From Owenia fusiformis (Eukaryota > Annelida > Polychaeta > Sabellida > Oweniidae): a stretch of DNA of 64,000 nucleotides. Both the position numbers and the translations under genes were made by a program. The notes under the pieces are model-generated. The model made no database searches. It was not told where the DNA came from and saw only the letters and a program-made list of their open reading frames with translations. The stretch spans positions 6,408,571 through 6,472,570 of the forward strand of contig CAIIXF020000011.1 of NCBI GenBank assembly GCA_903813345.2. The letters run 5' to 3'. Below, in pieces: positions 5,399 through 14,600 of this stretch (the stretch's first letter is position 1; the number at the start of each line of letters is the position of its first letter).

Positions 5399-5622
5399 TT
5401 ATTTAATGTTGAGGTCATTGATGGTGTATATTGTCTCATTATCAGTGCCACATAGCAGTGTGTTGTTAACTATGTCCAAGCTGTTCACTGGCATTATGTT
5501 ATCAGGAATCAATGATGTTATATCAAGTCTGTGTTTGGATGCATCACTTGTCAACCAAGGTGATGAACTACTGGACCCTTGGACATTTAAACCTCTTGTT
5601 GTATAATTTGAACCATCTAACC
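5399..5622 (-). CDS. Nup43: Nup43 exon 8 (stop codon), proximal acceptor
   Basis: 73 codons plus TAA, entered in phase 1 from acceptor TTTATAG. It reads GLDGSNYTTRGLNVQG, SSSSSPWLTSDASKHRLDIT, then SLIPDNIMPVNSLDIV and LLCGTDNETIYTINDLNIK. It matches the human C-terminus (WLSTDPAKDRIEITSLLPS and CGTDAEAIY). The reading frame continues open upstream to 6199 through copies of this exon start, so longer isoforms are possible. Confidence 0.93.
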
Positions 5623-8600
5623 CTATAAATATAAAATAGAATGGAGTTATATCAAGGCTGTGTTTAGATGCATCACTGGTCAACGAAGGTGATGAACTAC
5701 TGGACCCTTGGACATTTAAAGCAATTGTTGTATAATTTGAACCATCTAACCCTGTAAATATAAAATAGAATGGAGTTATATCAAGGCTGTGTTTAGATGC
5801 ATCACTGGTCAACCAAGGTGATGAACTACTGGACCCTTGGACATTTAAACCTCTTGTTGTATAATTTGAACCATCTAACCCTGTAAATATAAAATAGAAT
5901 GGAGTTATATCAAGGCTGTGTTTAGATGCATCACTGGTCAACCAAGGTGATGAACTACTGGACCCTTGGACATTTAAACCTCTTGTTGTATAATTTGAAC
6001 CATCTAACCCTGTAAATATAAAATAAAGTGGAGTTATATCAAGTCTGTGTTTGGAAGCATCACTTGTCAACCAAGGTGATGAACTACTGGACCCTTGGAC
6101 ATTTAAACCTCTTGCTGTATAATTTGAACCATCTAATCCTGTAAATATAAAATAGAATGGAGTTATATCAAGTCTGTGTTTAGATGCATCATTGGTCAAC
6201 CAAGGTGATGAACTACTGGACCCTTGGACATTTAAACCTCTTGCTGTATGATTTGAACCATCTCAACTAAAAGATATAAAATAGACTATTAAATAGATGG
6301 CAATGCTACATAGAACATGGTTTGTATTCATTTTAACTTCATTCAATTAATAGGGGTCAAACGGTTCAAAATTCCAACGGTTCGGTTTGGTCACGGTTTT
6401 TAGGTTCACGGTTCGGTTCTTTCACGGTTCTCGCGGGTCTCGTAAAATGTTAATATTTCCTTATAAAATAGTAAAGACAGCTCATAAAGAAACAGGTTTT
6501 AGCTTTCTATCTAGCCTTGCCCATGTTGGCCACTTTCTATCCTGGTCCCACTATCCTTTTTTATTAAATTGACTTGACAAAGCAAAGTTTATTGGCCTAG
6601 TGGCCAACTTTAAATTTTAAACTTTAGATTTTTCTGTCCTTGATTGTATTAAGAGCTGAGATCTACATGTAGCACAAGCAGTAACATAGCCCCGGGAACA
6701 TGCATATAAAGATCGAGTCGAATACACCAAGTAAAGAGATCTCTTTACTTGGTGTATTCAACTCATCTTTTTTATTATACATTTTCCCAGACCTATGTCT
6801 TAACTTAACTTGAGGAAAAAATTTAGCCTAAGAAAATATTTTTCTCACCGTGAAGATACTTTATGATCTCCCTACAGATTCTGCATATTGATACATTGTC
6901 CTCTGATTACCCATTCCAAACGTTGCTTTTGTATTTCAATAATTGAGATTTAATCTCGCAATTCTTGTAGTCTGTCAAAGCAGTCATGCTGAATCAGCAC
7001 AGATGGCGCTGCGATTGTGCGGGAGATTTAAACACAAACATGTTTCAAGTTTTTAACAAAGACATTAGTAATGTTATAATTTCTGTAATTGTAGTATTTT
7101 TTAAATAATATTGATTAAAAACAAACTTATTATAACAGACAAAACACCTCCACGAAGCAAAATTAATTATACTATGAATAGCGTAATCTGGCGAGACCAA
7201 CTTCCGGTCTATTTAAATGTCACAAAATGTAAACAATTACTTGTCTATCGATTTGTGAGCGATCTGTTTCACATCTAAGGTAAGAATTGAATGTTTTCTA
7301 TTGCTATTAACATGTTTTTAAGGAATATATTCATGAAGAATAAGTTCATGTCGAACGAAAGAGAGAATATTGAAGACTAAAAAATTTTATTTTTCTAGAA
7401 CAAATCAGTATTATAGAGTTGCTTATAAGAGCAAAGAAACAGTAATTTTTTCTCTCATTTCAGATGATCATCATTTACTAGGATCTAGGTGACATAGTGC
7501 GAATGAGTTACACTGTCAATTCTGATGTATGCACCATTTTTTAGGGAGTAGGAATATGTAGAGATTGGGAATACATGTATAGTACTTATTGTTCATTGAA
7601 GAAATGATCTAATATATAAATAACCTACCATGCATTTGTATAGAGTTGCCAGTTGTGCCGTCCCAGTGCCAAACAGAGCCATCTTCACTACAGCTAAACA
7701 GGTTGTCAGGGGAGGTAGGGTGGAATTTCAACTCCCACACTAAAATAAGATATTCATGTACACTGGATCAATCAGAATTATGTATTTAGTCTGTTTATGA
7801 GCAGTTTGTCAGGGAAGGTAGGGTGGAACTTCAACTCCCACACTAAAATAAGATATTCATGTATAGTGGACCAATCAGAATGAAGCATTTAGTCTGGATG
7901 ACCAGGTTGTCAGGGGAGGTAGGGTGGAACTTCAACTCCCACACTAAAATAAGATATTCATGTACAGTGGACCAATCAGAATTATGTCTTCAGTCTGTTT
8001 ATGAGCAGGTTGTCAGGAGAGGTAGGGTGGAACTTCAACTCCCACACTAAAATAAGATATTCAGGTACAGTGGACCAATCAGAATTATGTATTTAGTCTG
8101 GATGAATAGGTTGTCAGGGGAGGTAGGGTGAAATTTCAACTCCCACACTAAAATAAGATATTCATGTTAAGTGGACCAATCAGAATGAAGTATTCAGTCT
8201 AGATGAGCAGGTTGTCAGGGGAGGTAGGGTGGAGCTTCAACTCCCACACTAAAATAAGATATTTATGTATAGTAGACCAATCAAAATTATGTATTTAGTC
8301 TGTTTATGAGCAGTTTGTCAGGGGAGGTAGGGTGGAACTTCAACTCCCACACTAAAATAAGATATTCATGTATAGTGGACCAATTAGAATCATGTATTTA
8401 GTCTGTATGAGCAGGTTGTCAGGGGAGGTAGGGTGGAATTTCAACTCCCACACTAAAATAAGATATTTATGTATAGTAGACCAATCAAAATTATGTATTT
8501 AGTCTGTTTATGAGCAGTTTGTCAGGGGAGGTAGGGTGGAACTTCAACTCCCACACTAAAATAAGATATTCATGTATAGTGGACCAATTAGAATCATGTA

Positions 8601-11600
8601 TTTAGTCTGTATGAGCAGGTTGTCAGGGGAGGTAGGGTGGAATTTCAACTCCCACACTAAAATAAGATATTTATGTATAGTAGACCAATCAAAATTATGT
8701 ATTTAGTCTGTTTATGAGCAGTTTGTCAGGGGAGGTAGGGTGGAACTTCAACTCCCACACTAAAATAAGATATTTATGTATAGTAGACCAATCAAAATTA
8801 TGTATTTAGTCTGTTTATGAGCAGTTTGTCAGGGGAGGTAGGGTGGAACTTCAACTCCCACACTAAAATAAGATATTCATGTATAGTGGACCAATCAGAA
8901 TGAAGTATTCAGCCTGGATGAGCAGGTTGTCAGGGGAGGTAGGGTGGAACTTCAACTCCCACACTAAAATAAGATATTCATGTATAGTGGACCAATCAGA
9001 ATGAAGTATTCAGCCTGGATGAGCAGGTTGTCAGGGGAGGTAGGATGGAACTTTAACTCCCACACTAAAATAAGATATTCATGTATAGTGGACCAATCAG
9101 AATGAAGTATTCAGCCTGGATGAGCAGGTTGTCAGGGGAGGTAGGGTGGAACTTCAACTCTCACACTAAAATAAGATATTCATGTATAGTGGCCCAATCA
9201 GAATGAAGCATTCAGTCTGGATGAGCAGGTTGTCAGGGGAGGTAGGGTGGAACTTCAACTCTCACACTAAAACAAGATATTCTTGTACAGTGGACGATTC
9301 ATTGTAAAAGTTCACATTAATTTTCAGTTTTATCTTAATCTACTTTCCCATGTCTGGTCTTTGAAATTCATGGATAATCGAATTGCTGGAAAGTTTCAAA
9401 GTAAATATTATCCAGGAGTCCGTTTTTGTACCGTTCGTAGTAACGAACGTTCGCAATTCGTAAATTCGTAAATATTTAAAAAGTTACGAATGAGTTACGA
9501 ATTCGTAAAGTTGCGAATGGATCATTTTTGTACGCTTTCGTAAGTCATTCGTAACTTTCCAATTGTTTAGAGTAAGATTTACGAATTGGTTGACGTCATA
9601 TTCAACAGTTGTCAGGACAGATAGTACAACAAACAGGGTTGATCAAAATAATAAAACCAAAGTCATACAATAAGAACTTTATAAAAATAAAGATTCCGTG
9701 AAAAGTACTAAAATATATATAGAAATAGGTTGATAATACGTTGATAACAGTGTTGCCCTTTGTGTTCTCTGATTTAGAATGACAAAATGTCACAAATCAC
9801 AATATAAATGAATAAATAAGAGGCCGTTCGCAAAGTTACGAAAGGGTCAGAGGTGGTATTAAATCTACGAACGAAAACAGGCATGACGTCACTATTTTCG
9901 TAAATTTACGAATCGTTCGTAACTTTACGAATCTTACGAAAATGCAACTTTGCGAAATTCGCAAATTAAACAATGAACTTACGAACGTTCGTTACTACGA
10001 ACGGTACAAAAACGGGGCCCTGGGGGTCATTAACAGAACTTTCGCAAAGTTACGAATTCGCAAGTCAATTGTTTATTTTACGAATTTGGTAAATCTGCAT
10101 TAACAGAACTTTCGTAAAGTTACGAACGATTCGCAAAGTTACGAAAAAATGACGTCACGCATGCTTTCGTTCGTAACTTTAATAGCACCTCAGACCCTTT
10201 CATAACTTTGCGAATGGCATATTTCTCATCCAGTTCTTATGTAAAGTATACGGGTTGGCAAAAATAAATTGTTCTTTAGATGCATGCTAAGTTTCAAGCT
10301 AAAATATCTACCTATTCTTACATGATAAGCAAATATGTTCCTGAGCTGGGAATCTTTGAAATCGCGCAATGATATCAAATGACATCATATTTTTATTTGT
10401 GCTAAATGATGGTATAAGATGACGTCACAATTTGAAATTCGTTTACGAACCATAAAACTTATGAATGACTTACGAAAGTGTTCTGTTAATGGCCGATTCG
10501 TAACTTTACGAATTCGTAAGTCATTCGTAACTTTTTAAATATTTACGAATTTATTCGTAACTTTGCGAAAATTCTGTTAATGACCCCCAGATTAAATGCT
10601 ACTTTCTTTAAGATAAGCTACTTTCATGAAGAAAAATGTCCTCATTAATCTTAGAACTTACTATTTGCATCGTGTCCATCTAATATTGTGACAGGGAACT
10701 TTTCTTGCCTCATATCCCATATGTTCAGTTTACCATCCTGTCCCCCTGTTGCAACTATGTGTGGCTGATTGGGGTGGTTACTAACACAGTGCAAAGGTGT
10801 CCTTTCCCCAGTACTGAAAATACATATTTTACATAGGTTTTTCCAAGGCGATTGGTGCATTTAACTGGAGGATTCAGGATTTTGAAAACCTTTCTCACAT
10901 TTTTTAAATTGCGCATAAAAATATTGGCTACCATATTCTCTCTAATGAATGCATAGTTCCATTAAGCACACATGCATGTTGAATATGATCTCAAGAAAAC
11001 ATGACTTTTAATGCATTTGTTTTGATTATTTACACAACAAGATATTGATTGATGATTATATTTAATGCAGAGAAAAAAATACAGGAGCTGAAGAGTATGT
11101 AAACCTTAGTGATAATGACTAAAAAGATTATGTGCGATATTCTTTTCTCAATTTGTTGTATGTGTGCTTATTGGAATCTCTCAATATCTTACCCTTTTGA
11201 ATTTCAATTTGGAAACCACATTGTGTGCTCGTTAGAGAGAATATGATATGTATATAAACAGTTTTTCATTCACAAAAACATATTTCAACTTGTGTCAACA
11301 ACTTTGAAAAATTAGAAACCAGATTGGTTTGAAAAAAATTTAAAGGTTGTAACAAAAAATATTTATGTGCTATAAACCAACATGAAAAAGTGCCAATTTA
11401 ATATTTTCAATAACAAAAAAACTCACAGTACAAATATTCTTGGTTCTACATCTGGCTGTCTGAGATCCCACACCTTCAACTGTCCAATAGAGTTCACTGT
11501 TACAATTTCAAACTGTTTCAAATATGCAACGCCATTCATTGAGCTACTGTCCGCATTATCTGAAACATAAATAGGATAAAATCAGAATACAATTGTATTT

Positions 11601-14600
11601 CACCTAGAAAATGAGAGTATCATGAAATATAGGCATATTTTGACCAAATATGGTCTAAATCATGAAAATAAGAATTTTGCACCAACTTGAGAAAAAATTC
11701 TTTGGAGAACACTGCAATGTAAGCGCTGGTCCAGTGGCCCAAAGCCAGTAAGTTTCAATCTGGACTCACTGATTTTTTCATGATAGGGAAAATGTCAAGG
11801 GAGGGACAATACACGGCATTAACACGCAAAGAATAATTCGTGAACGGACACAAAAATCCTTATACTTAAAATATGGCAATCAGTCTAATTTACAGTACAT
11901 GTAAACTGAAACACATTTATGTGGAATGAGATTCCACTTAGAATCTTTTTCTCTCCGTACTTTTAATGCCTACATTTGTAAGCAGGAGCCAGCATGAATT
12001 TATTTCTAACAATGTGTGAAAATAGATTAACTCTCCAATTTAATTACATTGGTAGAAATCATAAAAATTCCACAGATGTTCTAACTAAACCAGTATTCTA
12101 TAATGTATATGGCATTTACAGAAAAACAAGTTGTTTTTATAACAAAACTATAAATTATGGATTTTTAAGTGGATGCCTATCTTCCAAAGATTCAATCTTT
12201 GTTATGAACGTATTAAAAGTGCATTAATTCTCAGAAATAAAAGAAACAATTTTATCTCGTTTTTCTCACTTCGACTTCATATAATTAATTGGTATAATAT
12301 AAATAATATATAAATCATCTTTACATCATTTGCTGTAGATATTACAATCTTCATATCGCAGATTATCCTACACTTAGTGTACTAAATGTATAATAACATG
12401 AAAAAATAAATTTGATATTTATTGGCAAAATGAATATCCGGAGGATATCGTTACGATATACTCCGGGCGGAGGATATCGTGACGATATACTCCGGAAAAC
12501 CCAATATGCGGAGGATATTGTGACGATATACTCCGCTTGTTGATTTCCCGCCAAATTGACTCTATTTGGCATGAAATTCATTTTACAATGATATTATACA
12601 TTCAGTACACTCCTTGTAAGTGTAGGATAATAAGAACATCCTATGATTTTTTCAGAATATCATTTTAATCTACTCGGTGATATTGATATATGCACTCGTT
12701 CGCTTCGCTCTCTCGTGCAGATATCAATATCACCTCGTAGATAAAAATGATATTCCTCAAAATCATAGGATATCCTATAAATATCAAATGGATATACTGA
12801 ATTGCCAGCAGAGTTTAGTTAATCAAATCATGGCAGTGATCTCCTCTGGATTTTTTTTCAAGTGGGTGCAAAATTCTCACTTTCCCAATTCAGACCAAAA
12901 ATGGTCAAAATATGCCCATATGGATTCTCAGTTGAGTGCAAGCCTATTATCAAAATCTCAGGTGGGTGCTGCGCCCACTTGCTTTAATGCTGGGGAGATC
13001 AAATCATGGTTTTATTTTGTTTCATTGATATACTGGTGAATTAATTGGTACAGTTAACCTCTGAATAGTACTCTGTACTTTACTACCTCGTAACAGATGC
13101 ACCTTTATCCAAAGGTATATTTTCTATAATTCATATCTTTTCATGATATACTAAGAAAATACTTTTACAATTGAAACAATTTTTACAAAATGATTTGTTA
13201 TTCTTATTTATCCCTATGTAAATATATCACTGGCAGATCCAAAGGAGCCCATGGGGCCCGGGCCCTCCACACACTTGAGTGGGCCCAGAAATCTTGAAGG
13301 GCCTCAAGAAATGGGCGTTTTTGGGCATAACTTAGGCTTTTTGGGCCTTTATAGGCCGAATTTTCAAAAAATGGGCCTTAATTTTTCAAATTTTGGGCCT
13401 AATTTTTTGTCTTAGGAGCCCAATTTTTTCCCCGACTTGGAATTTGGGCGCCCCTTCGCTAGCTTCTGGATCTGCCAGTCTATATGCACTATATGACAGA
13501 ACTCTAACTAGGAAATTATTAGGGTGTGACGCTGATCACATATAATTTAATATTGACAACAAGTAGTTGTGGCAGAGTAATATAACTTGTGGTATGATCT
13601 GATTAGATGTTGGTGCCGTTCACTTTTTCAATTCTAATGAATTGGAACTTTTGTTTTTGATGAACTAATTGTATATTTTTCACAAATTCATAATCACAAC
13701 AATAAAATTGAACTGAATACATACTTATAGTGCGAACTGGATCACGCTGCTCAATATTCAAAATATGGATCCTGCCATCTTCTCCCACTGTTGCTATGAC
13801 ACCATCATTCTTGGTTGCTATGGCAGTACAACTGCATCTCTTGTTGCTATGATGATGAATGTTGTCCCAACTGTTGACAGCTTTCAAAACCTTTATAAAA
13901 ACATAAATATTGTCGCATCAGTTTTCGCCCCAAAATTCTTAAATTGGATAAAATTTCTCATTTTTATAATTTTGTAATTGGTCAAATTATTTGCAATTTT
14001 TCATGATTTTTCTCATATCCAAATGGGGCTTCAAGTGGGTGTTGCCCTATTTTCAAATATCAAGTGGGTACAGTTGCCACTTGTTTAAATGTTAGAGAAT
14101 AGAGAGGTCACTGAGAGTAACTGCAAGAAGTAACACCTATTTAAAGGAAAAAGGGATAGAGAGAGGTTGACACGAGACATTAACATGGAAATCTCACCAC
14201 TTGCCATTTGTTTCAGACAACAAACACCAAACGCCAAACACTATCACAAAAATTTGGAGACTACAATATGTCACCACTTCTGGTTATGGCATGACAAGTT
14301 GAGAGTGACTTTCAAAAAATGACAATTTTACATTATTTCTTGCTCTGACCATTCCAGATTGCAGATGCCCATTTTCTAAAATGCGGTTGCAAAATTCTCA
14401 ATTTCACATTTCAGCAATTCCGATCAAAACTGGTCAAAATATGCCCATTTTTCATGATTTTCTTATTTTCAAGTGGGTGCAAATGGATTCTCAGGTGGGT
14501 TCAAGCCTATTATCAAAATCTCAGGTGGGTGTTCGCCCACTTGATTTAATGCTAGGGAGATCACTGATAAGGGAAACATAAGGAGGCCTCTTGAAGAGTG

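Follow-up and report, generated by a model that had tools for sequence, protein, structure and literature searches.

The closest described counterparts of the arrays considered here are the "mirages" of amphioxus, minisatellite-like tandem duplications of exon–intron boundaries found, for example, in BflGb6, BflGb9, and Adh3 (PMC3087553), to which PGBD5 and TnC have been added (PMC3902484). In BflGb6, units of 150–160 bp combine the 3′ end of an intron with the 5′ part of an exon, and the two haplotypes carry six and three of them (PMC3087553). In the same work, RT-PCR results suggest regular splicing of the genes concerned, units evolve in concert within a cluster, and a model of intron gain is put forward in which mirages would give rise to new introns by way of tandem duplication (PMC3087553). 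Among the matches listed in the literature searched, no report of mirages outside amphioxus was found.

In the window—the whole stretch of 64,000 nucleotides of DNA that was analysed—two successive introns of a single gene, Nup43, carry boundary arrays. Tandem acceptors of the NAGNAG type, in which several acceptors compete for one donor, could add in-frame residues; the spacing in Nup43, however, is 129 or approximately 101 bp and not a few nucleotides, and the exon start is itself repeated. Coding VNTRs such as mucin repeats are in-frame minisatellites that could vary protein length, whereas the Nup43 unit contains an intron end together with an acceptor and would be intronic by default. Introns may also be gained when AGGT proto-splice sites undergo tandem genomic duplication; there, too, an internal duplication carries splice signals, but Nup43 shows no new intron, an existing one being lengthened by default.

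Sequence comparison identifies the gene as Nup43, a WD-repeat nucleoporin, in agreement with the initial annotation, which was made from the letters of the window. A query with exon 6 (10662–10813; all features of the gene are on the minus strand) returned Nup43 as the best match in the PDB set. Joining exons 4–8 at GT–AG sites, with the innermost exon-8 acceptor, gives a product of 261 residues, which aligns with 6lk8_C over residues 6–255 (E 1.4e-82) and with 5a9q_0 over residues 7–256 (E 3.4e-79); we take these chains to be frog and human Nup43, respectively. The match covers all the recovered exons, reaching query residue 255–256 of 261 with short gaps in one variable stretch. Exon 4 (13725–13890; numbered as in the initial annotation, its start being uncertain) enters the alignment at its residue 6–7, and exons 5 (11427–11559) and 6 are likewise placed by alignment. 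Exon 7 (7629–7739) is placed by its GT–AG reading: the exon ends in CATG and is followed by gtaggt at 7628, which bears out the exon end that had been set at 7629. Around the junction of exons 7 and 8 the alignment with the solved chains is poor, and any extra units inserted there would therefore extend a loop ahead of intact last strands.

The array at exon 8, the last coding exon, occupies 5517–6285 and was delimited by Tandem Repeats Finder (TRF), repeat search, and unit alignment. TRF gives a period of 129, 6.0 copies, 94% matches, 0% indels, and a score of 1354, and with these figures the array is not a product of chance. Each unit comprises approximately 21–23 nt of the end of intron 7, including the acceptor, and approximately 106–108 nt of the exon-8 start. 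Exon 8 proper (5399–5622, with its stop codon at 5399–5401) aligns with solved Nup43 when read from the innermost acceptor, ATAG/GG. Unit alignment places four duplicate units with in-frame acceptors beyond it, at 5623–5751, 5752–5880, 5881–6009, and 6010–6138. All six copies retain an AG acceptor and five of these are in frame, so that exon starts at 5622, 5751, 5880, 6009, and 6138 correspond to 0, 43, 86, 129, and 172 added residues. In the outermost copy (6139–6285), sequence reading finds the AG (TTTTAG) shifted by 1 nt and hence out of frame, with a TGA in the frame of the array. That frame opens at 6262 and runs uninterrupted as far as the stop at 5399, a length of 287 amino acids.

Divergence is greater in the flanking copies than in the inner ones, which are homogenised. 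The units anchored at 6004 and 5875 (5881–6009 and 5752–5880) are identical at 129 of 129 positions, and the unit at 5746 (5623–5751) matches both at 124 of 129; between the two outer units and the three middle ones, 116–123 of 129 positions are held in common. In the innermost copy, 4 of 108 exonic positions depart from the consensus, one of them at the unit end, and before the unit end all differences of the true exon 8 are synonymous. Much of the initial annotation thus stands: a 129-bp unit of 43 codons, built from intron end, acceptor, and exon-8 start, with near-identical middle copies whose recent expansion was rightly judged. Its five in-frame copies and its open frame from 6199 need amending, since the five in-frame acceptors include the one adjoining the exon body, the array has a sixth copy that is off by one base, and the frame is already open from 6262.

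The four outer in-frame acceptors have CAG at their end, against TAG at the innermost, and by a simple count the pyrimidine content of innermost and outer sites is equal (0.80); on sequence alone, the innermost acceptor therefore has no advantage. A search for the donor motifs GTAAG, GTGAG, and GTATG found none inside the array. In the single assembly, the array gave one strong match and no second haplotype was found; two weak matches, on contigs C7 and C1, both lie inside separate tandem arrays. A Pfam scan of the 287-residue frame returned seven unrelated families, of which one (TadZ_N) was above the cut-off, and these were rejected as sums of weak matches over a repetitive protein, no stretch passing on its own.

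A second array, absent from the initial annotation and situated one exon upstream of the first, spans the start of exon 7 (7699–9295, minus strand; TRF and sequence reading). Its unit of 101–103 bp, repeated 15.7 times, consists of the end of intron 6, an acceptor (CTTATTTTAG), and approximately 41 nt of exon 7, and the array holds 16 acceptors at sites matching CTT(A/G)TTTTAG. From every outer acceptor (15/15), the exon frame runs into a stop after 1–33 codons; the array therefore cannot lengthen the protein through its outer acceptors. The two outermost copies carry GTGAG at 9265 and 9164, and apart from these the array is without any GTAAG, GTGAG, or GTATG.

Boundary arrays recur across the genome. 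The survey sample consisted of the best 30 of 92 myosin-head matches and the best 30 of 144 kinesin matches, which merged into 50 segments totalling 174.4 kb, and reading of these revealed at least eight boundary-spanning arrays, a count that takes in two with approximately two copies. Four are on the acceptor side (C6 kinesin, 42 bp × 3.5 and 93 bp × 3.9; C1 kinesin, 87 bp × 3.0; C1 myosin, 61 bp × 4.5) and four on the donor side (C7 myosin, 41 bp × 4.0; C9 myosin, 121 bp × 2.8, truncated where the locus ends; C10 kinesin, 47 bp × 2.0; C10 myosin, 17 bp × 2.2). The exons at arrays L026 and L033, picked up because of their arrays, we take by recognition to be myosin sequence. Those of the 60 merged arrays that lie near conserved blocks were read, together with some that have a boundary-like unit, and eight is thus a minimum that should not be read as a rate. 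Arrays S42, S47, S23, S49, S36, L010/S01, and the 60-bp array of L024/S07 were read and left out of the count, and S46 and S10 were judged by coordinates or block text.

Outside the surveyed loci, evenly spaced kinesin matches drew attention to an exon, which we take to be KIF4-like, at C2:23265900–23270100. It carries a 159-bp unit repeated 17.9 times with 18 acceptors, and all 17 outer acceptors lead into a stop, which falls at the copy's codon 45. Evenly spaced exon copies were found in none of the 60 chaperonin and 52 DEAD-box matches, inspected as match rows and not as letters; arrays with a long exonic part are thus not common. Taken together, boundary arrays have the look of repetitive DNA that recurs in this genome and that splicing is able to pass over; they do not look like a means of lengthening proteins.

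The arrays of Nup43 are probably the outcome of neutral minisatellite growth across a splice boundary, as in mirages, with the innermost acceptor used for the most part. A tandem duplication would by chance have begun in the end of an intron and stopped within the next exon, and slippage or unequal exchange may then have expanded the duplicated units and made them uniform, as happens to minisatellites in this array-rich genome. With the upstream exon spliced to the innermost acceptor, a normal mRNA would result, and the other copies would form part of the intron. Such arrays could persist because the body of the exon occurs once, so that one acceptor (or donor) alone yields the normal exon.

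Exon definition pairs an acceptor with the nearest downstream donor. For internal exons such as exon 7 and the KIF4-like exon, this would favour the innermost acceptor, other choices being expected to give truncated transcripts. A last exon has no downstream donor by which it could be defined; with a terminal exon, CAG against TAG, and equal pyrimidine content, some use of the outer exon-8 acceptors is therefore plausible. As the exon-8 unit is a multiple of three, such occasional use would add a loop, and this may do little harm.

The exon-8 array shares four features with mirages: a minisatellite-like repeat, a unit spanning the boundary, splice signals in the copies, and homogenised inner copies with diverged flanking ones. 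The amphioxus arrays are likewise tandem units across a boundary, with splice signals in many copies and homogenised inner copies (PMC3087553). On these four features, the best explanation is that the exon-8 array belongs with the known mirages; it is known from one assembly and its sequence, whereas the amphioxus arrays are also known from RT-PCR and haplotype comparison. The present arrays differ further in that two adjacent exons of one gene are affected, that a single array holds up to 16–18 acceptors, and that one of them sits on a terminal exon, where its unit is open and in frame. The present genome, in contrast to that of amphioxus, also looks spiralian, for in the C1 Hox cluster a Lox5-type homeodomain is followed by KLTGP, presumably the spiralian Lox5 signature; if so, the genome is not that of amphioxus. 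A search with mitochondrial COX1 as a marker of phylum gave no match. In the two accounts cited, mirages are reported from amphioxus (PMC3087553, PMC3902484), and several arrays in a spiralian-looking genome suggest that they may occur wherever the minisatellite load is high.

The initial annotation had drawn a different conclusion from the exon-8 array, namely that the gene may make a C-terminus of variable length. Under such a reading, Nup43 would form a regular ladder of isoforms, with zero to four extra 43-residue units (exon residues plus the translated intron piece PFYFIFT) ahead of the last propeller strands and with lengths that differ between individuals. The unit of exactly 129 nt, the frame open from 6262 to 5399, and four outer CAG acceptors equal to the innermost in pyrimidine content would all suit such a ladder, as would a terminal exon in which donor pairing is unneeded and an insertion point within the poorly aligning stretch. 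We nevertheless regard it as unlikely. The exon-7 array of the same gene is unusable, and this array (15/15 stops) and that of the KIF4-like exon (17/17) indicate that such arrays arise without productive use.

The copies themselves also speak against the isoform ladder, as they display no clear coding constraint: the unit at 5623–5751 carries R10I, G11A, W23S, and R32S, the third of which replaces with serine a tryptophan common to both solved Nup43 chains. In the exonic part of the six copies, eight distinct non-synonymous codon changes (one of them to a stop) stand against six synonymous ones, the change at the unit end being omitted; with few changes and small numbers, the pattern fits freedom from coding constraint. 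An open frame across 21 nt of intron is unremarkable, because windows of seven codons are open in 3381 of 5381 cases (63%) across four stretches of Nup43 introns, and the chance of a unit length divisible by three is approximately one in three. The anatomy, the 43-codon unit, and the recent expansion put forward by the initial annotation thus hold, but a length-variable Nup43 is possible but unsupported, nothing in the sequence favouring it.

It is also quite unlikely that cells use several of the five equivalent exon-8 acceptors to give Nup43 a loop containing translated intron, its length varying among individuals as the minisatellite mutates, and that, more broadly, boundary minisatellites have repeatedly supplied proteins with new segments in animal phyla far apart from one another. 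Neutral minisatellite growth remains the preferred reading, and the placement of arrays relative to exons bears on it.

Arrays make up 9.5% of the surveyed sequence outside conserved blocks. An automatic criterion finds six arrays that overlap a block edge, where random placement predicts 15.3 (95% range 10–21), and six or fewer overlaps occurred in 0.2% of 2000 trials; inside blocks, two arrays were observed and 4.2 expected. The comparison set 60 merged arrays against the 131 blocks that remained once 10 of 141 had been dropped by hand (transposon-like, non-motor, or repeat copies). One boundary was placed by hand, the method of defining blocks is an approximation, and each locus has a strong family match at its centre. 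Among the six automatic overlaps, S23 showed no boundary duplication on reading and S07 is weak (17 bp × 2.2). With six overlaps against 15.3 expected, boundaries are therefore not favoured sites, and we infer that boundary arrays are the remainder of frequent arrays after some purging.

This deficit weighs against selection on splicing as the force that keeps the array, whereby repeated acceptors would reduce or adjust the efficiency of splicing or channel Nup43 transcripts into nonsense-mediated decay. Such a role would be in keeping with arrays on two successive introns of the gene and with the early stops that the outer exon-7 acceptors would yield; similar arrays, however, occur in motor-protein genes, on acceptor and donor sides alike, and we consider the proposal very improbable. 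That misassembly created or multiplied the copies is scarcely credible—even though tandem arrays are error-prone in assembly, a single assembly is at hand, and two identical 129-bp units could be miscounted—as private substitutions distinguish most copies, the array lies in a 37.3 Mb contig with the locus found once, and arrays of the same kind occur in several genes.

Genes with up to 18 near-identical acceptors, of which only one gives the full protein, provide a ready-made experiment on the choice of a 3′ splice site by the spliceosome. Nup43 supplies both halves of a comparison, since its internal exon has an array that splicing must pass over, whereas at its terminal exon splicing is under no such necessity.

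Several further features were observed. Intron 7 of Nup43 holds a 36-nt inverted repeat (6704–6775) without spacer and 83% complementary. In the 93-bp acceptor array on C6 (near 34.54 Mb), every copy reads TTTTGTAG directly followed by GTATGC, and its sites could in principle serve as both acceptor and donor, that is, in recursive splicing. At C9:37986009–37994334 (minus strand), one stretch of the myosin head (profile positions approximately 18–84) is matched twelve times at uneven intervals, in what looks like a cluster of alternative exons. Within the window, a 49-bp minisatellite of 22.9 copies (731–1868) lies immediately upstream of a minus-strand reading frame that resembles a membrane protein; the position of the acceptor there is uncertain, and the array seems to abut it rather than span it.
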